From positions 58,782 through 122,781 of the IMG/VR virus record IMGVR_UViG_3300009320_000004: a DNA stretch of 64,000 bases. The stretch is one strand, 5' to 3'. The notes beneath the pieces were generated by a model. The model had not been told where the DNA came from. It ran no database searches and saw only the letters and a list, made by a program, of their open reading frames with translations. Positions within the stretch are counted from its first letter, which is position 1; the number at the start of each line of letters is the position of its first letter. Below, piece by piece: positions 2,084 to 61,020 of this stretch. Position numbers and translations under genes: made by a program. Source of the DNA: a virus.

Positions 2084-2514
2084 GAATCGTCGAGTACACC
2101 CTCGACACCCCCGAGTTCGGCATCGTGCTGTTGGGTCGGCCCCTCCCTGTCGCGGGCGACTCGTGGGGATGCCTCGCGCCGCTTCGAGGGACCGCGTGGG
2201 AGAGCCTCTTCCCGACTGTGACCGGGGAGAACCTGTCCAACGCCATCCACGGCCACGCCAAGCCCCTGATGGAGTCCATCGGGCCGGACCCCCGCAGCCT
2301 GATGAGGCTCGTCCCAGAACCTCGACTGTGCGCGGACATCAAGACCTGCGTGATGCGGGCAGAGAAGAAATGCCACCCCTGCAAGAAAGTCCCGGACTGT
2401 TATCTGGCTCCGGGGCTGGATATGGACGCTCAGGCCGCCGCCAGCGTGGTTGTGCTGGCGTGGAGGGAAGGGCGGTATATTGTAATCGTAGAAGGGGATG
2501 AGTTCAGCCTCTAA
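2080..2514 (+). CDS. Cys-rich hypothetical protein of the replication operon
   Basis: The start is placed at GTG 2080, overlapping the primase stop by four bases, which points to translational coupling. The 144-residue product has a central cysteine cluster (CADIKTC, then CHPCKKVPDC) that could bind zinc or an iron-sulfur cluster, flanked by beta-rich stretches and a C-terminal strand pair (YIVIVEGDEF). No family was recognised. Coupling to the primase module and position just before the polymerase gene suggest a replication-associated role, by context only. Confidence 0.6.
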   Translation: MRIVEYTLDTPEFGIVLLGRPLPVAGDSWGCLAPLRGTAWESLFPTVTGENLSNAIHGHAKPLMESIGPDPRSLMRLVPEPRLCADIKTCVMRAEKKCHPCKKVPDCYLAPGLDMDAQAAASVVVLAWREGRYIVIVEGDEFSL

Positions 2515-2558
2515 TTCGGGTAGGAGGACTGTGAGACACCCCACACCACGGAGATGAG

Positions 2559-5447
2559 ATGGCAGGCGATGACTGGGATGCCCAGATTCCTGAAGCGTTC
2601 GAGGTGACAGACCACTACCAGAACCCCGGTGTCAAGCATCGGGACTGGATGGACGAAAAGGTGTTCACCCTTGCCACGGTGGACAATCTCACGGCCCTCA
2701 TCGACACCTGCATCGCGGCTGACCGATTCTCCCTCGACTTGGAAACGTCGGGCCTCGACAACCGGGTGCTGTGCTTCGACGATGGCACCCGGCGGACCGT
2801 GGACCAGATTGCGGGGGTCTGCCTGTCCCCGGACGGTGTGAACGGCTACTACGTTCCGCTCCGGCACGTCCGGGTGAGCGAGACTGGTGGTCGGACTCCC
2901 CTCGAATGCAATATCCCCATGGCCCTCTTCGACAAGGAGTTCCGACGGCTTATTGCTGCCGTCGATGCGGGCGAGACGGTCGCCATCTTCCACAACGGAA
3001 AGTTCGACCAAGAGTTCCTTCAGTTCCCCGGCGGAAAGCCCTACGGCGAGTGGGACAAGCCGAGCCACTGGGAGGACACCCTCATCCTCGCCTACCTCCG
3101 CAACTCCCGTGAACGGGACAAGAGGCTCAAGTCGCTGTCCAAGGTGGAGCTGGGAATCGACCAAGTGGAGCTGGTCGAGCTGTTCCCGGAGGACACGCCG
3201 AAGGATAAGCTCGACTTCTCGACCCTCGACCCGACCGACCAAGGCGTCCTCTGGTACGGCGGGGGCGACGGTATCTGTACGTGGCTGCTCTACGACGTGC
3301 TGGCCCCGCCGGTCCTCAACAACGACACCGACGGGCGCAACCAGAAAATCGTCTACCAGATTGAGAAGGGATGCGTTGCCGCGACCCGGTGGATGGAGCG
3401 AAACCAGATTCACGTTGACATCGGGAAGGTCCGTGAACTGGTCAATCTCGGCCAGCAGGAATGGTTCGACTCCATCGTGGAGGTCTACCGGGCGGCCAGC
3501 GAACTCCTTGGCCGGAACGTGATGCCCGGCAAGTACAAGGCACTCACCAAAAAGTTCGACGCCACCGACCCCCACAGTCTTCTGCCGGTGCAGCTCAAGC
3601 GGGCAGAGGCGAGAGGCAAGGCGGAGTACCCGGACCCGCCGGGAAAAATCAAGGACGACAACCGGAACAAGACCTTCCCGCTCATCTACGACGTGAACGC
3701 CCCGAAGCAACTGGGGCAGATGTTCGACGAGATGGGTGTGCCGGGTCTGCGCCTGACGGAGAAGAGTGGCCAAATCAAGACCTCGAAGGACGAAATCGAG
3801 CGCGTCATCGAGGAGGCGGGCAAGAAGTTCCCGTTCATGGGCCTCATCAAGCGGTTCAGGGAAGTCAGCAAGGCGTTGTCCGGCTACCTCAACCCGATGC
3901 TCCTCGCGTGCGACCCCGACAACCACACGATGCGAATCAACTTCAACGGCCACAAGGTCGATACGGGCCGGTTCTCCACCCCGGCCAAGGACAAGAACCG
4001 GGGCCACCTTCAGGGCTGGCCGCAGGTCAACCTGCAATCCATCCCGGCCACCTACGACCCGAACCGCCCGGAGTGTATGACCCGACTGCGGGAGTGCATC
4101 ACGGCCCGCAAGAAGGGTGCGTACATCGTGGCCATCGACTACGCGGGCGTCGAGCTTCGCCTCGTTACCAACCTGTCCTACGAGCCGCTGTGGCTGGCGG
4201 AATTCTTCCACTGCGCCGAATGCGACCGGACCTTCGAGAAGGGTGACGGTGAAGGGACGCCGATGCCCCCTCCGGCCCGCTGCCCCAACTGCGGCTCCGA
4301 CAAGATTGGCGACCTTCACACCCTGACCGCTCTGTCCCTGTTCGGGGATGACGCCATGTCCAAGGACAACTGGAAGGCGCTCCGGGGCGATGCCAAGGCC
4401 ACTAACTTCCTCCTGTGCTACGGCGGAGGTGGGGCCGCTGTATCCCGCAGGACCGGCGTGGACAAGAACGAGGGCTGGCGCATAAAAAACGCCTTCGACC
4501 GGACCTATCTGGGCCTCAAACGCTGGTGGCACACCCAGCACACCTTCGCCAAGCAGCACGGGTTCGTGCGGACGGCCATGGGCCGCAAGTATCCGGTGCC
4601 GGACATCAACAACCAAGATGGCGGCTTCCGGTCCAAGGCCGAGCGCAACTCCGTGAACGGCCCGATTCAAGGGACCAGCGCCGACATCACCAAGACCGCC
4701 ATGGTCCTCGTCTACAAGCTCTGCAAGAAGCGTGGCTGGCTCGACAAGGTGATGATGATTATCACCATGCACGATGAGCTGGTCTTCGAGATGGACGGCG
4801 ACGTGATGCAGGAAGCCATCAAGGCCATCATCCCGGTCATGACCCGCAACCCCTACGTCCTCAACCGCAAGTGGCCCATCCCGCTCACCTGTGACGTGGA
4901 AATCGGCCACGACTGGACGGTGCCGTGGGACTTGAACTCCATGCACTTCGGAGAGGTCAAGTTCATCGGGAACAAGAAAATCAAGGGCGCGAAGAAGACC
5001 CCCGACGGCCACCGCTGGGAAGACCTGCAATGCTACCCGGACGAGCTGGTGCCGTGGTTCGGGGAGGAGGAAGCCGCTTCAGCCGATGCCAGTCTTGCCT
5101 CGACCATGAACAGGGTGGGCGGGGAAGACGATGACCAGCCCCCGCCGAGCGCCCCTTCCGGTCCAGCCGAACCCGCACCGGAGACAGCCGCGACGGGCGC
5201 ACAAGTGGCAGAGGAAATCCCCGTCCCGGAGGGTGAAGCGTTCGAGTTCCGTCTCACCGTACCGCTCACCGTGGGTACAATGGAGAGACTGGCAGGGGTG
5301 CTTGCCCGGACCCGTGACCGAGGAACCCGCATCTTGAAGCTGTTGGCCAACGACGGCACCCCGCTGGACCTCTCCGCAGCCTTCGGGGAAGAGGTGCAGG
5401 TCCACTACAATCATTTCATGTCATTGGCGGAGCTGGATGGACTCTGA
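2559..5447 (+). CDS. polA: Family A DNA polymerase with 3'-5' exonuclease and zinc-ribbon insertion
   Basis: A 962-residue replicative polymerase of the Pol I type. The exonuclease domain shows LDLETSGLD (about residue 59), FHNGKFDQEFL (about 145) and YGGGDG (about 234). Polymerase motif A is DYAGVELRL (about 527), closer to the T7 form than to DYSQIELR. Motif B is RGDAKATNFLLCYGG (about 608) and motif C is TMHDELVFEM (about 738). Between motifs A and B lies an unusual four-cysteine insertion (CAEC...CPNC, about 552-577) that looks like a zinc ribbon. The last ~150 residues are a proline-rich linker plus a small extra domain. No 5'-3' exonuclease domain is present. ATG 2559 has GGAG upstream. 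Confidence 0.93.
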   Translation: MAGDDWDAQIPEAFEVTDHYQNPGVKHRDWMDEKVFTLATVDNLTALIDTCIAADRFSLDLETSGLDNRVLCFDDGTRRTVDQIAGVCLSPDGVNGYYVPLRHVRVSETGGRTPLECNIPMALFDKEFRRLIAAVDAGETVAIFHNGKFDQEFLQFPGGKPYGEWDKPSHWEDTLILAYLRNSRERDKRLKSLSKVELGIDQVELVELFPEDTPKDKLDFSTLDPTDQGVLWYGGGDGICTWLLYDVLAPPVLNNDTDGRNQKIVYQIEKGCVAATRWMERNQIHVDIGKVRELVNLGQQEWFDSIVEVYRAASELLGRNVMPGKYKALTKKFDATDPHSLLPVQLKRAEARGKAEYPDPPGKIKDDNRNKTFPLIYDVNAPKQLGQMFDEMGVPGLRLTEKSGQIKTSKDEIERVIEEAGKKFPFMGLIKRFREVSKALSGYLNPMLLACDPDNHTMRINFNGHKVDTGRFSTPAKDKNRGHLQGWPQVNLQSIPATYDPNRPECMTRLRECITARKKGAYIVAIDYAGVELRLVTNLSYEPLWLAEFFHCAECDRTFEKGDGEGTPMPPPARCPNCGSDKIGDLHTLTALSLFGDDAMSKDNWKALRGDAKATNFLLCYGGGGAAVSRRTGVDKNEGWRIKNAFDRTYLGLKRWWHTQHTFAKQHGFVRTAMGRKYPVPDINNQDGGFRSKAERNSVNGPIQGTSADITKTAMVLVYKLCKKRGWLDKVMMIITMHDELVFEMDGDVMQEAIKAIIPVMTRNPYVLNRKWPIPLTCDVEIGHDWTVPWDLNSMHFGEVKFIGNKKIKGAKKTPDGHRWEDLQCYPDELVPWFGEEEAASADASLASTMNRVGGEDDDQPPPSAPSGPAEPAPETAATGAQVAEEIPVPEGEAFEFRLTVPLTVGTMERLAGVLARTRDRGTRILKLLANDGTPLDLSAAFGEEVQVHYNHFMSLAELDGL

Positions 5448-42781: not shown

Positions 42782-43780
42782 ATGAAGACCATGCGACAGG
42801 GCGACCGGGGCGGGCTGGTCAAGAAACTCCAAGAAGCCCTCGTCAAGCTCGGCTACAAGCCGGGGACACCGGACGGTGTTTACGGCCAGAACACCGAGGA
42901 TGCCGTCGAGGCATTTCAGGACGGGGCCAAGCTCTACACCGACGGGAAGGCAGGCCGTGACACTTGCATGGCCATCAATGCCGCCCTCACCAACGCCGGG
43001 GGTTACTACGAGCAGCTCCCGGAGTTCGAGGCGTTCCACATCCCCATGGAGGTGGACACCTCGGAGCCGATGGGCGAGCCGGAGGACAAGCTCCCGTGGA
43101 AGAAGTGTCCTGCCGACAAGTTCGAGGGTCGGGGAGGCTACGAAAGGACCACCCTGCGAGGAGATACCGCCGTCGTCTACACGGCCATGTACCATGTGTG
43201 CCACAGCCTCGGGGGCATCATCACGAGCGCCGGGGGCAAGCGTCCGTTGGCCTCGTCGGCGGGCAAGAACCGCTCGAAGAAGTCCTTGCACTACGTGGGC
43301 CGGGCGTTCGACATGGCGCTTCCCACCGCGATGCGCGACCCGGACAAAGACCCCTATATCATCGTCCGGGACGGCGATTCCCGCTACTGGAATGTCTGGT
43401 GTGTCTCCGCCCTCAGTGAGGAGTCCCTGTCCGCCAAGTGCCAAGCTCTCGGCATCGAGGGCGGCCTCGTCACGCTGACAGGCACCTACCTGTCCGGCAA
43501 GAAAATCAAGACCAAGACGGTAGAGGTCGTTGCCTTCAACTTCACCCAGCTCGCAAAGCTCAACGGCTTCGACCGCATCCCGGCACGTTCCAGCTTCTTC
43601 TCCAAGGGGACTTACGGGGCCGCCGAATGGTGGCACTTTAGTTGGCGGGATGAATTGATTAAAGGGCAGACCACATTCGGTGAAGAACTTTTGAAGGTCT
43701 ACTCTCTTACCCAGTGCAAAAAATTTGTTTACTGGGATGATGTCAAGAATGCAGTCTACGGGGAAGATTTCTTTGGCTAA
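42782..43780 (+). CDS. Endolysin: peptidoglycan-binding domain plus M15-type peptidase, 3' end recoded
   Basis: Residues ~1-70 form a PG-binding domain (QGDRGGLVKKLQEALVKLGY; GVYGQNTEDAVEAFQ). Residues ~120-300 form an M15/VanY-like zinc peptidase: KSLHYVGRAFDMAL (SxHxxGxAxD motif) and AEWWHF with the third zinc ligand. The substrate is the peptide stem of murein. The last ~45 codons switch to AT-rich usage, unlike the rest, and their GC-rich original, TFGEELLKVYTLAQAKKFVY, is stranded at 44461-44590 beyond an inserted GIY-YIG element. So the element provided a new 3' end and the protein stays intact. Confidence 0.9.
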   Translation: MKTMRQGDRGGLVKKLQEALVKLGYKPGTPDGVYGQNTEDAVEAFQDGAKLYTDGKAGRDTCMAINAALTNAGGYYEQLPEFEAFHIPMEVDTSEPMGEPEDKLPWKKCPADKFEGRGGYERTTLRGDTAVVYTAMYHVCHSLGGIITSAGGKRPLASSAGKNRSKKSLHYVGRAFDMALPTAMRDPDKDPYIIVRDGDSRYWNVWCVSALSEESLSAKCQALGIEGGLVTLTGTYLSGKKIKTKTVEVVAFNFTQLAKLNGFDRIPARSSFFSKGTYGAAEWWHFSWRDELIKGQTTFGEELLKVYSLTQCKKFVYWDDVKNAVYGEDFFG

Positions 43781-44298
43781 GGAATAATGTAGGAGACACG
43801 TTGCAGATTCAGACACGCAGGCTCGGAGAAATGAATATCAATAGTCTGACCCTCGACACGCCGAGCCTCATCTTTAGTGGTTACTCTTGCCAAGACTTTC
43901 GCCGTGAAGCTCTCGGGCCTGTATCCATGACGGCGGATACGACTGTTACGATGAATACCCTGTCGCATCTCCCACCGATGCAACGAGAGCCGGTTATAGA
44001 GGTCGTTGGTCGAACCAATATAAAAGCAACCATCATCAAAGTCCAGCCGATAAACAAGCCATTGAATCCGGGCAGCCCGTGTTTTCGATTTTCGGTCACG
44101 AATGCGGGGCTTGTTACTGTCTCGCCATTTTTGATTCCGGGCAAGTTCCTTGTCCCGGTTGCCGTGAAACGCCCGCCGATTTACCTCTTTCCCACACGTT
44201 CTACAGACATTAAAAAACCCGTCACGACTTGCCCGGTCTTTCCAAAATTCCGTGGTCGGAAGGGTGCGGTTGCATTTGTGACATATCTTGGTTGTCAT
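43777..44298 (-). CDS. GIY-YIG homing endonuclease with N-terminal zinc finger
   Basis: The N-terminal ~45 residues have ICHKCNRTLP...FNVCRTCG, a four-Cys finger seen in phage homing nucleases. The nuclease part reads LVYRLDFDDGCFYIGSTNDLYNRL (GIY-YIG form V-Y...F-Y-I-G-S with Arg on the next helix), then a Lys/Glu-containing end (TTKDEARRVEGQ). It is tail-to-tail with the endolysin, overlapping it by four bases. The start is inside the upstream RHH gene. The base composition is AT-richer than the phage, as expected for a mobile element. Confidence 0.9.
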   Translation of the reverse strand: MTTKICHKCNRTLPTTEFWKDRASRDGFFNVCRTCGKEVNRRAFHGNRDKELARNQKWRDSNKPRIRDRKSKTRAARIQWLVYRLDFDDGCFYIGSTNDLYNRLSLHRWEMRQGIHRNSRIRRHGYRPESFTAKVLARVTTKDEARRVEGQTIDIHFSEPACLNLQRVSYIIP

Positions 44299-44425
44299 CG
44301 GTTACTCCTCGATAGGCGTCTACAGCACGCCTCACCAGTTCGGACACGGGTACACCGAGACGTAGGGCTTCAGCAGAGAGCCAATCGAACTGTGGGCCAG
44401 AAAACGAGATGAGGCGTTTCTTCAT
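44222..44425 (-). CDS. Ribbon-helix-helix regulator of the mobile element
   Basis: A 67-residue protein: KKRLISFSGPQFDWLSAEAL then GVPVSELVRRAVDAYRG, a beta strand and two helices as in CopG/Arc-type repressors. It overlaps the GIY-YIG gene by 77 bases and is preceded by a sigma70-like promoter, so it probably autoregulates the endonuclease. Confidence 0.65.
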   Translation of the reverse strand: MKKRLISFSGPQFDWLSAEALRLGVPVSELVRRAVDAYRGVTDDNQDMSQMQPHPSDHGILERPGKS

Positions 44426-44431
44426 GTAGGA

Positions 44432-44460
44432 AGTATATCCGATGGATGCACTGATGCCAA
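44432..44460 (-). promoter_or_regulatory. Sigma70-type promoter of the RHH/GIY-YIG element
   Basis: On the minus strand TTGGCA (44455-44460), a 17-base spacer and TATACT (44432-44437) match the sigma70 consensus well. It differs from the phage's own bipartite promoters. The -10 end is only 6 bases from the RHH start codon, so the transcript may be leaderless or very short-leadered. Confidence 0.6.
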
Positions 44461-44590
44461 GTCAAAGGGCCTCGTCGATGGCGGGTCCACCTTCGGGGAG
44501 GAGCTGCTCAAGGTCTACACTCTGGCGCAAGCCAAGAAGTTCGTCTATTGGGACGACGCAAACTGCCGTTGGGGCGTGGACTGGGGCTGA
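44461..44590 (+). pseudogene. Orphaned original 3' end of the endolysin gene
   Basis: The frame SKGLVDGGS, TFGEELLKVYTLAQAKKFVY, WDDANCRWGVDWG and stop TGA matches the last ~40 codons of the endolysin (TFGEELLKVYSLTQCKKFVY) but in the phage's GC-rich codon style. There is no start codon or ribosome-binding site. It marks the right border of the inserted element. The next gene starts 4 bases later. Confidence 0.8.
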
Positions 44591-44593
44591 TGA

Positions 44594-47500
44594 ATGAAAG
44601 GCTCGCGCCTGCAATCTTCCATTTGTGTCTGTGTCATGGCCAAGGGGAAACCGGGTCGTCTGGCCCCGCTCCTCCGGTCCATCGCTGATTCACGGGGCCA
44701 CAAACTCACCGTGTTGGTGTTCGACAACGCCAACACGGTGGATTACTCCGAGAGTCTCAAGCTCATCCGCAAGAAGGGCTGGACCCATTATCGGTCGCCA
44801 CAGCAGCTCTCGGAGGATGCGTTCAGCAAGTGGGTCTACTCCCACCTGCACGCCCACCGCGCCCTGCACTACATCTTCCTGCCCGAAACGGCCCAGATTC
44901 ACGAGCATTTCTTCCCCTGTGCCTTGGCGTCATGGGAAGAAATCCCGGACCCGAAGAAGGGGGCGCTCTCCGTCGTGGGTGTGAGGAGCCGTCCGGCCTC
45001 TGCCCCCGTGCAGACCGGAGCAGAGTTGTCTCAGCGCACCGAAACCCTCGGTGCCTTCTTCCTGACCGATGCTGCCGGAGTGGAAATACTCAGAGGGTGG
45101 TCCCCCGAGCGGGGGCTGCCCTGCAAGGACTTCAACGCACGAGGGCTGAATGTCTACCGGGTGCAGCGGAGCCTCGTGAACACGGTGGTCCGTGACACAC
45201 TGCCTGCTTCCGACGCGCAGCCCCCGATGCTCCCGCCTTCCCGGACGGGGAAGCGTGTGGCTCCCGACCACCCCTCTGCGGCTCGAAGTTGGCCCCTGAA
45301 GGCCCCAGAACAGCCCCAGAAGTCCTCCGGGAAGGCGGCCTTCCTCGTGGCCACCAACCACCGCCCGGAGCTTCTCAAGGCGTGTCTGAGGGCATTAAGC
45401 GTCCAATTTGTCCCCGAAGGTTGGGACTACGAGATTCTGGTCATCGGGACGGAGGGCGACGAAGGCCGGTCCATGGCTGTTCGCTTCCCCCGCACCCGGT
45501 ACGTCGTGGCCAAGGGAGAGACGGTCACGACGAAGCTCAACACCTCCCTCAACGAAACAGACGCCGACCTGCTCCTGCTTGCCGACGACGATGACCTGCA
45601 ACCCCCGGACCGCCTGAAGGCCGCCATCGAAGCCTACGACCGAGGTGCCGGATGGTCCGGGGTCGGGACCATCATCTTTTACGACCCGGAGAAGGACCGG
45701 GCGATGGAGTGGTCCGGCAAATCTTCACTGGGGCTGGTCGGCACGAGCCTCTCCTTCAAGGCCAGCATCCTGCGCCAGACAGGGGGGTGGCCAGAACGCA
45801 AGTCCGGCAAGGACAGCCCCCTCGCCCGGCGCATCGAGCAACTCCCCGGCGTAACCTACATGGACCTCACCGACAAGATAGGCCGTATCATCTGCCTTCA
45901 GCACAGCTCGAATATCTGGAAGCGGCCCATCATCGAGCTGGGCGGCCAGTCCTCGAAGGGGAAGTTCCGCATCAAGGGCATGGGGACCGCAAAGCAGGCC
46001 GGTATCCTGCACACGACCCGGCTCCTCTCGGCCAAGCCACGAATTTACGTCGCCATCACGACCTGCGAACGCCCGGAAGATGTGATGCTGCTCCTCCAAG
46101 ACATCAAGCAATCCCTCGGGGAGTTCGAGGTCCGTGTCATCGTCTACGATGATGCGAGCGCCGCCGATTACACGCTGGCCAAGACGTTCATCAGGGACAA
46201 CGGTTGGCAGTTCATCAACATGAAGCACAGGCACGGAAAGCACGGCTACATCAAACTGATGTCCCGTGTCTTCAACGATGCCCTTCGCGCCGCTGCCGAC
46301 TACTATTACTTCATCCAAGACGACATCCGGCTCTGCTCGGAGTTCTTCGGGCGCACCACAACGCTCTGGGACGACATCGACGACCCCAAGAAAGCCACCC
46401 TGTTCCTTCTGAAGGACGACAGCCGAGGTGCCACAGGTGTCGCCCCATGGACAGGGGTGAAGGCAACCCCCGCTGGGCGGGTTGACCGGACTCAATGGGT
46501 AGACGGCAACGCCTTCATGTTCGGCCCCAACATCCGCTTCGCAATGCCCCACGGGCACATCCCGAGGCCACCGTCTTCGTGGTTCTTCAACCCGACTCAC
46601 GGTTCGGGCTTCGGACGACAGGTGAGCCGTGGCCTCAACGACAAGGGTTTCAACTTATACCAATCCCGGCAGTCTTACGTGGCCCACGTCCACCGCTCCT
46701 CCATCATGAATCCCTTGACACGGGCGGCCAATCCACTATCTGCCATCTCCTTTGTGGACGGCACGGAGAACCCCAAAACTACGATAAAAGAGGAGGACCC
46801 TATCATTGCCTCACTCGCATCCATACCGGGTCGGGTCAACCAACTTCAAGAGGTTGTCCGACGCCTGCTCCCGCAGGTAGACCGGCTGAACGTCTATCTC
46901 AACAATTACGGAGGGAAGCCGGACTTCCTCAACCACCCGAGTATCGTGGTGGAGATGAGCGAGACATGCCCCTTCGGGGACCAAGGGGATGCAGGCAAGT
47001 TCTATTGGGCCGACGACATCGAAGGCTACCACATCGTCCTCGACGACGACGTAGCCTACCCCCCGGATTTGGTTGCTACTCTCATCAGGTGGGTAGACCA
47101 GTACCAGCGCAAGGCCGTCGTGGGCTGTCACGGGGTCGTTCTCACGGAGCCGTTCACCTCCTACTACAACAACCGGGTGGTCAACCACTTCAAGTCTGAG
47201 GTGGCGCACCCAATCCCGGTCCAGTGCATTGCCACAAACTCCTGCTGTTACCACACCAGCACCATCAAGGTGTCCAGAGACGACTTCAAGCATCCCAACA
47301 TGGCCGACATCTGGCTTGCCCTTCTGGGCCAGCACCAGAAAGTGCCGTTCGTTTGTATTCCGCACAAGGCCGGGTGGCTCTCAGACCTTCAAGGGTACAA
47401 CATGGGCGACTCCATCTATGCCCACTCAAAGAGGAAGGTGGCCTCTGTAAAGAACACTGCTGACATTCAGACCCAAACTGTGAAGGAGAGTCTCCCGTGG

Positions 47501-48271
47501 GTCATCCATCGCGCCCAGACGGGGCCGGTGAAGAAAGCTGCTTTCTTGGTACCCACCACCAACCGCCCTGAACTTCTGCGGCTCGTGCTTGCCTCCCTGA
47601 AAGCACAACGAGTCCCGGACGGGTGGGCCTGTGAAATTCTGGTCGGGGGAAATCCGAAAGACCCCGGCAAGGCAATCGCCCTCTCCATGGGAGCGCGGTA
47701 CGTGGACGTGATGGCACCCTACCCCGGAGCCAAGCTCAATGCCTGCGCGGCCCAGACCGACGCGGAATTGTACCTTGCCGCCGATGATGACGACATCCAG
47801 AGTCCTCGTCGATTGGAGGCGACGGTTGCCGCCTGCCGAGGAGGCCAACATTGGGTAAGCTGCTCCTGTGTGTGGTTCCACGACCGAGAGAGCCAGAAAA
47901 CGGCGTGGTGGACCGGACCGGCTCACCTCGTCGGGACCACCACGGCCATGACCGCCGAAGTGTTCAAAACCGTTGGGGGTTGGCCCGGTGTTTCCAAGGG
48001 CAAGGAAGACCTGCTCGCCAAGCGGATGAAACAGAAGGGAGTCTCCTGTCACGATATGGGCGATACGGTCGGGGTAGAGACAGTGTGTCTTCAGCACCCC
48101 ACCAATATCTGGAAGCACCCCTTCCCAGAACCGGGGGCCTCAACGAGTCGCGGGTCTTTTCGTATCAGGGGGATGTCCCCGTCGGACCTGCCTGACGGAG
48201 TGGTCCAGCTCTTGGAAGGGGTAGTTCTCCCCATGAACCTTGCCGGGATTGCGAGGAAAGGCGATGGATAG
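44594..48271 (+). CDS. Giant glycosyltransferase with five GT-A-like modules
   Basis: A 1225-residue soluble polypeptide. By internal similarity I see five modules. Module 1 (about 1-230) and module 3 (481-690) are alike (VLVFDNANTVDYSE versus VIVYDDASAADYTL). Module 2 (246-470) and module 5 (979-1190) are alike, each with a KAAFLVxTxxRPELL start and an ADDDDxQxPxRL Asp motif. Module 4 (735-950) is distinct (ASLASIPGRV, IVLDDDVAYPPDL). GT-A enzymes use Asp motifs with a metal to transfer nucleotide sugars. All five need not be active: module 1 has FLPETAQI where Asp is expected. Likely virion or host glycan decoration. Confidence 0.75.
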   Translation: MKGSRLQSSICVCVMAKGKPGRLAPLLRSIADSRGHKLTVLVFDNANTVDYSESLKLIRKKGWTHYRSPQQLSEDAFSKWVYSHLHAHRALHYIFLPETAQIHEHFFPCALASWEEIPDPKKGALSVVGVRSRPASAPVQTGAELSQRTETLGAFFLTDAAGVEILRGWSPERGLPCKDFNARGLNVYRVQRSLVNTVVRDTLPASDAQPPMLPPSRTGKRVAPDHPSAARSWPLKAPEQPQKSSGKAAFLVATNHRPELLKACLRALSVQFVPEGWDYEILVIGTEGDEGRSMAVRFPRTRYVVAKGETVTTKLNTSLNETDADLLLLADDDDLQPPDRLKAAIEAYDRGAGWSGVGTIIFYDPEKDRAMEWSGKSSLGLVGTSLSFKASILRQTGGWPERKSGKDSPLARRIEQLPGVTYMDLTDKIGRIICLQHSSNIWKRPIIELGGQSSKGKFRIKGMGTAKQAGILHTTRLLSAKPRIYVAITTCERPEDVMLLLQDIKQSLGEFEVRVIVYDDASAADYTLAKTFIRDNGWQFINMKHRHGKHGYIKLMSRVFNDALRAAADYYYFIQDDIRLCSEFFGRTTTLWDDIDDPKKATLFLLKDDSRGATGVAPWTGVKATPAGRVDRTQWVDGNAFMFGPNIRFAMPHGHIPRPPSSWFFNPTHGSGFGRQVSRGLNDKGFNLYQSRQSYVAHVHRSSIMNPLTRAANPLSAISFVDGTENPKTTIKEEDPIIASLASIPGRVNQLQEVVRRLLPQVDRLNVYLNNYGGKPDFLNHPSIVVEMSETCPFGDQGDAGKFYWADDIEGYHIVLDDDVAYPPDLVATLIRWVDQYQRKAVVGCHGVVLTEPFTSYYNNRVVNHFKSEVAHPIPVQCIATNSCCYHTSTIKVSRDDFKHPNMADIWLALLGQHQKVPFVCIPHKAGWLSDLQGYNMGDSIYAHSKRKVASVKNTADIQTQTVKESLPWVIHRAQTGPVKKAAFLVPTTNRPELLRLVLASLKAQRVPDGWACEILVGGNPKDPGKAIALSMGARYVDVMAPYPGAKLNACAAQTDAELYLAADDDDIQSPRRLEATVAACRGGQHWVSCSCVWFHDRESQKTAWWTGPAHLVGTTTAMTAEVFKTVGGWPGVSKGKEDLLAKRMKQKGVSCHDMGDTVGVETVCLQHPTNIWKHPFPEPGASTSRGSFRIRGMSPSDLPDGVVQLLEGVVLPMNLAGIARKGDG

Positions 48272-58407: not shown

Positions 58408-59355
58408 CTAATCGAACAGCGGGCTGAGAGGGGCCTCGCTGTGAATGCGCTGGATGGCGTCCGCGAACACTTCGGTCACTGTGACCAGATGGAGCTTGCT
58501 GCCCCGGCTCTGCTTCTTCATGGTCGGGATTGTATCCGCGACCAAGACCCGGCGGATGGGGGACATTTCGAGCCGCTCCACGGCCTCCCCTTCCAAGACC
58601 GGGTGCGTAACGACTGCCTCGACCGATGCCGCCTCGTGTTCCATGAGGAAGTGGGCTGCATTGCAGAGCGTCTCGGCGGTGGCCGTCTCGTCGTCGATGA
58701 GGAGACAGTGCTTCCCCACGATGTCGCCCACCATGGAACTCACGTAAGACCTGTCGTCGTCTTCCCCCGTGCGCCGCTTGTCGATGACGGCGATGGGGAG
58801 GTCCAGCTTGTTGGCGAAGGGGGCCGCTTCCTTGGCCTCCCCGATGTCGCTGGCCACGACCACGTAGTCCGTCAGGTCCTCCACGGACAGGGCCGTGGTC
58901 AGGGCGTTGATGGCTCTCAGGTGGTCCACGGGGATGTGGAAGAACCCCTCGATTTGGGCCGAGTGCAGGTCCATGGTCAGCACCCGGTCCGCTCCTGCCG
59001 TCTGTAGCATGTCGGCAATGAGCCGGGCGGCGATGCTGATTCGGGGCTTGTCCTTCTTGTCCGACCGCACGTAGGGGAAGTAGGGGATGACCGCCGTGAT
59101 TCGCTCCGCCGAGGCGTAACGCAGCGCGTCAATGGTCAGCATCATTTCCATGATGTGGTCGTTCACGGGCGGACACGAGGTCTGGATGTAGAAGACATCC
59201 TTGCCCCGGACGTTGTTCTCGGCCTGAACCATCAGGTTGTCGTTGACGAACCTCTTGACGGTCATCATTTCGGCGGGGATTCCGAGGAGATGGCACACGG
59301 CTCGGGTGAACGCCGGGTACGAGGAACCTCCCATCACTACCAGTTCGCCGTGCAT
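58408..59355 (-). CDS. PRPP synthetase-family protein with altered ribose-phosphate loop
   Basis: A 315-residue ribose-phosphate pyrophosphokinase homologue: RGKDVFYIQTSCPPVNDHIM, ITAVIPYFPYVRSDKK, MDLHSAQIEGFFHIPVDHL with catalytic-site His131. The pyrophosphate region reads DDETATAET (221-229) where the family has DDxxDTxGT: the Asp and Gly at positions 225 and 228 are Ala and Glu. These residues form the ribose-5-phosphate loop, so a different or larger ribosyl substrate is plausible. It lies directly downstream of the PARP gene and probably supplies PRPP or an ADP-ribose derivative for NAD+ synthesis. No nicotinamide phosphoribosyltransferase gene is in the window. Confidence 0.78.
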   Translation of the reverse strand: MHGELVVMGGSSYPAFTRAVCHLLGIPAEMMTVKRFVNDNLMVQAENNVRGKDVFYIQTSCPPVNDHIMEMMLTIDALRYASAERITAVIPYFPYVRSDKKDKPRISIAARLIADMLQTAGADRVLTMDLHSAQIEGFFHIPVDHLRAINALTTALSVEDLTDYVVVASDIGEAKEAAPFANKLDLPIAVIDKRRTGEDDDRSYVSSMVGDIVGKHCLLIDDETATAETLCNAAHFLMEHEAASVEAVVTHPVLEGEAVERLEMSPIRRVLVADTIPTMKKQSRGSKLHLVTVTEVFADAIQRIHSEAPLSPLFD

Positions 59356-59379: not shown

Positions 59380-61020
59380 CTAGTTCAGCCAGTCGAACTC
59401 GATGATGTAGCGGATGCGCTGGTAGTGGGGGTCGAAGATGACATGCTCGTCATTTTCGAGCCGGTGGCCTCTGTCGCCGCCCACGCCGAACACGCTGTCC
59501 GTGTCGCCCGGAGGGGAACCCCACGAGCCGGTCGAGGGAGCGCGGTAGGCATTGCCCATCACCATGTCGCAGAGGAACATGAAGCAGCCCCGGTTGGCCA
59601 CTCCGCCCCCGCCGCCGTAGTAGCCCCGGCCCGTGTAGCCGTAGGACTTGCGCCAGTCGGTTGCGAAGTAGACGCCGTGACCGAAGTTGGCTCCGGTGAT
59701 TTGCGCTCCGGGGAGGCTCCGGGGGAGCCGGAAGTTGTCACCCAAGATGGGGGCGATGTTGACCGGGCGCGTGCCGTGGATGGCCATGATGACGTTGGCC
59801 TGTGCGAACAGGTCGGCCTCTTGCGCGTTCAAGTCCTTGCGCCGGGGCTGAAGATTCGCCTTGAGGCCGAACCGGCCCTTGCGCTTGGAGCCGACCGCTG
59901 CGACCTTGGCCATGAACGGGGCGTCCCGGTCGGGCCGCTCCACCATGAAGATGTGCTTCACACGGGCGGACCCACGTCCGAGGTATCCGTGACGGTTGTT
60001 GGACATCTGTGTGAACGCCGACGCCAGCCACGCGGCATCGCCGCGAGGGTCGAGCCACGTCAGCTTCGCGTTGAGCAGGCTGTCCGGGTCCACGTCGGGA
60101 GCCTTCGTGGCGGTGGAGAAGTCCTCGTTGCCCAACGCGGCCTCAAAGGCATCCAAGTCCTGTTGAAGGACGAGGATGTTGTTGGCCGACAGGATAGCCT
60201 CCGTGGCGTCCTGACCACCGCGAGGGATGGGCCGAGGCACGAGGGCCGCGACCAGTTTGGACAGGGCGATGAGGTCGTTGTCCTCGACCTGACGGTGAAC
60301 GTCGTTGCCGACCTTCTTGATGCGGTCCAGAGCCGCCGGGATGAGGTCGTTGCGAACTTCGTTGATGGTGTCCATCGTCGGGGTGATGCCCGAAGCCGCC
60401 GAGAGCGACCGGGCGTAGGTCTTGGTCCCGCCCACGAGGGCTGCGGCCAGCGACGCGACCTCGGGCTGGAAGGTGCGCGAGGGCTTGGCCGCTTTCTTCG
60501 CCTTGGGGGCGGCCTTGGGAGCCGCCGTCTTGGTGACACCCGAGTCGTCCTTGATGGTATAGGCATCCGGCAGACCCTTCTCACGGGTGGCGAGGCGCTG
60601 GACGAGGTATCCGTCCTTGCCCTTCTTGGCCGTCCAGATGAGCTTCCCGGCGATGGTCTGCTGGATGAGCCGCTTGACGTTCTTGCTGCCGCACTGCTTG
60701 GCGAAGAAGTCACGGGCGTCGCCCTCTCCGGTGCATTCGACGAACTGGAAGTCACCGCCGCCGAACCCGCCGTTCCACGACTTCGCGGCCTTCATGCGGC
60801 CCCATTCGAGGTAGACGAACCAGCGACCGCTGCCCTGTACCACGCCAGCGTGGTAATACTTGGCGTTGTTCGCTTCACCGAACTGGTTGACGCAGCCCAT
60901 GTCCGCGATGCCCACGTCCGAGCCGAAGTCGCCTTGGTCGTTCGCGGGGCGTCCCATGTACTTGAAGTCATCCGCCGAGAGTCCGGCAGGCATCTCTTTT
61001 CGTCCGAGTTTCGTGGCCAT
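59380..61020 (-). CDS. WGR-domain poly(ADP-ribose) polymerase (PARP1-like)
   Basis: A 546-residue enzyme. Residues ~50-115 are a WGR domain (YYHAGVVQGSGRWFVYLEWG, a Gly-rich loop and a helix). Residues ~170-300 are helical and resemble the PARP regulatory domain (LSAASGITPTMDTINEV; LSKLVAALVPRPIPRG). Residues ~350-546 form the ART domain with H415 (AIHGTR), Y451 (GHGVYFATDW) and E525 (NDEHVIFDP), the H-Y-E triad needed for NAD+ binding and chain elongation. No zinc finger or BRCT is present, as in bacterial PARPs. It may sense DNA breaks and modify host proteins or DNA-bound factors. Downstream of element 13. Confidence 0.9.
   Translation of the reverse strand: MATKLGRKEMPAGLSADDFKYMGRPANDQGDFGSDVGIADMGCVNQFGEANNAKYYHAGVVQGSGRWFVYLEWGRMKAAKSWNGGFGGGDFQFVECTGEGDARDFFAKQCGSKNVKRLIQQTIAGKLIWTAKKGKDGYLVQRLATREKGLPDAYTIKDDSGVTKTAAPKAAPKAKKAAKPSRTFQPEVASLAAALVGGTKTYARSLSAASGITPTMDTINEVRNDLIPAALDRIKKVGNDVHRQVEDNDLIALSKLVAALVPRPIPRGGQDATEAILSANNILVLQQDLDAFEAALGNEDFSTATKAPDVDPDSLLNAKLTWLDPRGDAAWLASAFTQMSNNRHGYLGRGSARVKHIFMVERPDRDAPFMAKVAAVGSKRKGRFGLKANLQPRRKDLNAQEADLFAQANVIMAIHGTRPVNIAPILGDNFRLPRSLPGAQITGANFGHGVYFATDWRKSYGYTGRGYYGGGGGVANRGCFMFLCDMVMGNAYRAPSTGSWGSPPGDTDSVFGVGGDRGHRLENDEHVIFDPHYQRIRYIIEFDWLN

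Follow-up and report, generated by a model that had tools for sequence, protein, structure and literature searches.

A nuclease element has inserted into the endolysin gene of a phage together with its own version of the gene's end, and the native end has been left behind as an orphan downstream. Most likely, this is a homing element of ~0.8 kb that entered the 3' part of the endolysin gene and replaced the native end by a foreign one. It comprises the foreign endolysin 3' end, an antisense GIY-YIG nuclease gene, an ORF with similarity to ribbon-helix-helix (RHH) proteins and a putative promoter. Homing elements are usually said either to persist in essential genes because they splice out, as introns or inteins do, or to lie in intergenic regions.

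The window, i.e., the whole stretch of 64,000 nt analysed here, covers positions 58,782 to 122,781 of a 122,781-bp IMG/VR virus record and has a GC content of 62%. Its DNA polymerase shares 50% identity with that of LR745208, the record of an uncultured 485-kb phage, and the record probably represents part of a giant phage genome. The phage collection searched holds no close relative of the window phage. Pattern searches with single proteins retrieved no close relatives either, so that an alignment of the DNA polymerases of the window and LR745208 was used instead. It led to 23 relatives in IMG/VR, several of them 265–619 kb in size. The LR745208 polymerase (L007, 2989–8265) carries two large intein-like insertions that are missing from the polymerase of the window. 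The genome studied here has intein-like insertions of its own, one inside the ORF of a UvrD-like helicase (L004 8020–12486, minus strand, corresponding to C1:48020–52486; CIEEATPINTPQGDRKASDLQIGDS ... NFFGGGILSHNS) and a second one in the ORF of a DEAD/SNF2-like helicase (L004 14028–16994, plus strand, C1:54028–56994), which is AT-richer than its surroundings. The phage also encodes a protein with a PARP catalytic domain (window 59380–61020, minus strand; Pfam E = 5e-13).

Layout of the endolysin locus

The endolysin gene occupies positions 42782–43780 on the plus strand and was assigned by its ORF, by Pfam and PHROG matches and by its relatives. Its product consists of a PG_binding_1 domain at the N-terminus and a peptidase-like C-terminal part with the EWWHF motif. 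The junction lies at the codons EWWHF-S (43625–43642, plus strand) and was located by comparison with 59 relatives. The supplied, AT-rich foreign 3' end extends over positions 43640–43780 (plus strand); it was delimited by its GC3 against that of the gene core, and its left edge is approximate.

The next gene runs on the minus strand (43777–44298) and codes for a protein of 173 aa. The first-pass annotation had placed a GIY-YIG nuclease between the two ends, and the ORF is borne out as such by Pfam (PF01541, E = 1.5e-7). The motifs YIG, NR and RRVEG are present, with LVY instead of GIY as the first motif. The N-terminus carries a Cys4 zinc-binding motif, and the PHROG matches are endonuclease VII and Lar-like. 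The endolysin ORF and the antisense nuclease ORF overlap by 4 nt, stop on stop, so that the supplied end is physically linked to the nuclease gene as a single unit. A small ORF of 67 aa (44222–44425, minus strand) extends into the start of the nuclease gene; the latter has a ribosome site of its own, GAGGAG. The small ORF had been described as an RHH gene; it is present, but the RHH match is weak and falls short of Pfam's cut-off (E = 0.014–0.019). The sigma70-type promoter proposed for the same interval reads TTGGCA-N17-TATACT (44460–44432, minus strand) and would drive both the RHH-like ORF and the GIY-YIG gene. It is a putative element, recognised by its consensus match (10 of 12 positions) in a region that has two such sites where 0.8 are expected by chance. 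Beyond it lies the orphaned native endolysin 3' end (44465–44590, plus strand), which has no start codon and was identified as a duplicate, by its composition and by means of the empty site described below. It directly precedes the glycosyltransferase gene of the right flank (44594–48271, plus strand; ORF, Pfam and synteny with the relative G001), which matches the order at the empty site.

Origin of the two 3' ends

The duplicated segments, 43671–43740 and 44487–44556, comprise 70 nt and are 71% identical. As proteins, LIKGQTTFGEELLKVYSLTQCKKFVYWDD and LVDGGSTFGEELLKVYTLAQAKKFVYWDD match with a score of 122, the runner-up in the same test reaching 58; as a baseline, the best scores of random segments have a median of 45, and paralogues reach up to 162. 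GC3 amounts to 0.45 in the supplied copy (31 codons) and 0.52 in the nuclease gene, against 0.87 in the orphan and 0.85 in the core of the gene. Under the codon use of the core, a GC3 as low as that of the supplied end has a probability of P = 3e-7. The duplicate match and the difference in GC3 thus agree with the initial description of an AT-rich end joined to the gene and a GC-rich, startless one downstream. The further claims that both ends encode the same sequence and that the supplied end is a synonymous version need correction. Both ends agree only up to YWDD, after which the supplied end continues with VKNAVYGEDFFG and a stop, and the orphan with ANCRWGVDWG and a stop, such that the last ~12 residues are of different sequence types. 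Across the 31 aligned codons, the two ends are identical at 5, differ synonymously at 17 and differ non-synonymously at 9; for the 23 codons from TTFGEE onward, the synonymous and non-synonymous exchanges number 15 and 3, respectively.

The supplied tail resembles VRNAVFGLDWF of G001, and the orphan tail resembles AK(S/N)CKWKVNWF of the loci L206 and L209–L211. As the latter is the regular end of these lysins, we rejected the idea that the garbled-looking orphan tail had decayed by frameshifts. By alignment score, the top relatives of the endolysin core are L209, L206, L207, L211 and L210. Those of the orphan are headed by L210, L209 and L211, also among the top five of the core, and the supplied end is nearest to L214, L216 and L221, all three AT-rich. 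The rankings of the relatives correlate between core and orphan (Spearman +0.50, p = 0.02), and the corresponding value for core and supplied end is -0.34 (p = 0.12). A tail tree of only 45 columns does not reject the two ends as sisters (AU p = 0.345), and in its alignment the orphan is the closest match of the supplied end (61%). Composition, synonymous divergence and tail type therefore argue for a foreign origin of the supplied end, while the short tail tree leaves room for sisterhood. From its sequence, the supplied end is most readily understood as a divergent homologous end or allele derived from an AT-richer source.

A search for relatives without the insertion, as suggested by the first-pass annotation, found the empty site in G001 (435,804 bp). 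This genome shows the order UDG, 87-aa HTH-like gene, endolysin and glycosyltransferase, i.e., the same genes as the window without the insert, and its lysin has a single uninterrupted 3' end, directly followed by the same glycosyltransferase gene. In total, we compared 59 viral and bacterial lysin loci including G001, some of which are nearly identical to each other and one of which is cut off at the gene end. At the 58 assessable loci, a second 3' end was searched for in 0.1–3 kb of downstream DNA and none was found (best score 39); accordingly, a duplication without a nuclease, named beforehand as the contrary outcome, occurs at none of them. Because of the empty site and the lack of a second copy at 58 loci, we regard the GC-rich orphan as native and the AT-rich end as the one that came with the nuclease. 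These two results, the composition and the cases at other genes uphold the central claim that the nuclease element inserted with its own 3' end. A donor phage combining this supplied end with this nuclease was searched for as well, and none was found.

The motif EWWHFQ is invariant in all 59 relatives, and in the window it reads EWWHFS at the junction. This exchange from Q to S would be expected if the cut site was altered, which is not to say that it proves it. The EWWHF-S junction is thus a candidate for both the nuclease target and the region of recombination.

Gene ends at other loci

A clear case of a replaced 5' end is the DUF6011 gene of the same genome (C1:42.3–44.5 kb, minus strand). 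Here, a GC-rich orphan start precedes an AT-rich stretch of ~1.9 kb that carries a C5 methylase gene and a LAGLIDADG_2 nuclease gene; next comes an AT-rich new start, joined to the GC-rich remainder of the gene. The duplicate scores 120, and GC3 is 0.46 in the supplied start vs. 0.87 in the gene. In G001, G003 and G005 the DUF6011 gene is uninterrupted, and against all three the orphan start outscores the supplied one. The C5 cytosine methyltransferase gene (L004 2435–3928, minus strand) adjoins the LAGLIDADG nuclease gene within one inserted element, and it is possible that its product protects sites by methylation.

At C1:1111–1902, again in the same genome, a GIY-YIG/NUMOD3 gene starts with MAKDFQLAWP. 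Its stop overlaps the start of a sheath-initiator-like gene (ATGA), which begins with MSRDFALAWP. The 5' leader and the first 10 codons ahead of the nuclease resemble the intact sheath-initiator start of G001. By score, ten codons alone are not significant (45, equal to the random median). Judged by this arrangement, it is likely that the nuclease took over the native sheath-initiator start and supplied a new one.

The relative G003 provides another clear case at locus L183, where the supplied 3' end of a HAD-like gene and an antisense GIY-YIG gene have 92 nt in common, compared with the 4 nt at the endolysin and the ATGA at the sheath initiator. The orphaned native 3' end is located beyond the GIY-YIG gene, with a duplicate score of 197. 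It was detected by a scan for duplicates straddling nuclease domains, which replaced a whole-genome repeat scan of the relatives that was swamped by paralogues. L183 is the only clear case among 44 GIY-YIG and LAGLIDADG loci across 22 relatives, so that most phage nucleases would not be expected to show this arrangement. L166 and L184 were considered as further cases and rejected as paralogous or shared-domain proteins. In L166 of G014, two otherwise different neighbours (301–878 and 2337–3002) share an N-terminal domain of ~50 aa, with a GIY-YIG gene in between.

In the clear cases, the insertions are located within highly conserved codons (EWWHFQ, HGIGP and VLVDDWP). The same RHH and GIY-YIG cassette, proposed as a thing to look for next to other gene ends, was not found elsewhere. 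Among the other nuclease genes of this genome, the HNH-like and the Ros/Vsr-like ones were checked and have no duplicated gene ends. The former is an AT-rich, HNH-looking ORF between two genes without a Pfam match (L003 12955–13695, plus strand). The latter combines a Ros/MucR-like zinc finger with a Vsr-like C-terminal part (L002 17226–18068, plus strand) and possibly represents another free-standing nuclease.

Alternative explanations, related systems and mechanism

Could the 3' end simply have been duplicated in tandem without a nuclease, with one copy drifting towards AT and the nuclease gene landing between both later? The tail tree is compatible with sister copies, and the highest identity of the supplied end is to the orphan. 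However, the copy in use is AT-rich in a genome of 62% GC, its composition is like that of the nuclease and unlike that of the phage, and the C-terminal types of the two ends differ. Moreover, none of the relatives carries the duplication alone (58 assessable loci), and the combination of a nuclease with a duplicated gene end recurs at other genes with unrelated nucleases, which makes this course of events very improbable. We give even less credence to a self-splicing intron, for which the orphan would be the true last exon and the AT-rich end a read-through or fallback product. Nuclease genes are commonly housed in group I introns, and the orphan frame is still open, but the intron RNA fold that surrounds a group I intron-encoded nuclease gene was not detected: Rfam reports no group I or II intron in the region even at a relaxed threshold, and the loci of the other cases, screened at the gathering threshold, gave none either. 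In addition, the nuclease runs antisense to the endolysin gene, and with the supplied end, which brings its own stop, the lysin is complete and of normal length.

An ordinary free-standing homing nuclease near its target is unlikely, too, though to a lesser degree. Chimeric end and orphan would then be by-products of illegitimate recombination and play no role in protection or homing. In the portion of the T4 homing endonuclease review considered here (PMC2988022), the seg and mob genes adjoin the genes they cut, and flanks are co-converted. Against this stand the clear cases at several genes, each insertion sitting in highly conserved codons, and the supplied ends being complete, in frame and overlapping or adjoining the nuclease gene. 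According to the same portion of the review, the T4 genes resemble the element described here as GIY-YIG nuclease genes without intron or intein that adjoin a conserved gene; unlike it, they are intergenic or split genes (mobE in nrdA, mobA in gene 60), and that portion describes no gene whose end was replaced and whose native end was left as an orphan. Our literature search found no phage example of gene-end replacement, subscription papers being mostly outside its reach.

In layout, the element comes closest to the WHO elements of the yeasts Torulaspora and Lachancea, which reside at the aldolase gene FBA1 (Coughlan et al. 2020, PMC7282813). There, a full-length chimeric FBA1 with a divergent supplied 3' end and an orphaned former FBA1 end flank the nuclease gene, and no splicing is involved; homing was proposed to swap in a resistant 3' end, and allele-specific cleavage was shown experimentally. 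The window agrees with this: its nuclease gene is flanked by a full-length host gene and the orphaned copy of its former end, and the host gene is, without splicing, a chimera whose 5' part is native and whose divergent 3' end was supplied, as judged by composition and tail types. The opposite orientation of the nuclease gene also occurs in WHO elements. In contrast to the intein-derived WHO nuclease with its LAGLIDADG and zinc-finger domains, the phage nuclease is an unrelated GIY-YIG protein (PF01541), and the element is therefore WHO-like in layout and not by descent. Further differences are the phage instead of yeast nuclear DNA, the inclusion of 5' ends, and the allele-specific cleavage, which is established for WHO and predicted for the phage element. 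The mobile ORFs (mORFs) of fungal mitochondria also replace C-termini, namely of atp6, atp9, cox2 and nad3 in Glomus and of atp6 in Allomyces (PMC3630166). They share the inserted foreign C-terminal coding end, the endonuclease ORF (GIY-YIG in atp9), the orphaned native end, and a DNA divergence of the two ends that far exceeds that of their proteins. Unlike the phage elements, they reside in organelle DNA, mostly encode LAGLIDADG nucleases and were described at 3' ends only.

For the preferred reading, an end-replacing homing element, we infer cutting, resistance of the supplied end and mobility from the sequence. The nuclease would cut native alleles within or close to the conserved EWWHFQ codons, and a genome carrying the element would serve as template for repair of the break. 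A crossover within the conserved codons would join the 5' part of the recipient to the divergent 3' end of the donor, and the downstream orphan could serve as right-hand homology arm in later rounds. The lysin gene would stay intact and its cut site would no longer match; thus, the element would depend neither on splicing nor on intergenic insertion. The same course of events has been proposed for the WHO elements of yeast. At gene starts, as in DUF6011 and probably the sheath initiator, the mirror arrangement would supply a new 5' end. With two natural alleles in one genome, a simple cut/no-cut comparison is possible.

By analogy, these elements look like a phage version of the gene-end-replacing homing elements described in yeast and in the mitochondria of fungi. 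What is new is the occurrence in phages, the unrelated nucleases, and the gene starts besides gene ends. We consider it reasonably probable that this phage group hosts a general class of splicing-free homing elements which swap the 3' or 5' ends of conserved genes and draw on at least two nuclease families. If this is true, end-swapping elements with GIY-YIG and LAGLIDADG nucleases turn phage genes into chimeras that the nucleases cannot cut. It would mean that end swapping arose independently with unrelated nucleases, at gene starts too, and it would account for chimeras among phage genes and for orphaned pieces of genes that annotators overlook.
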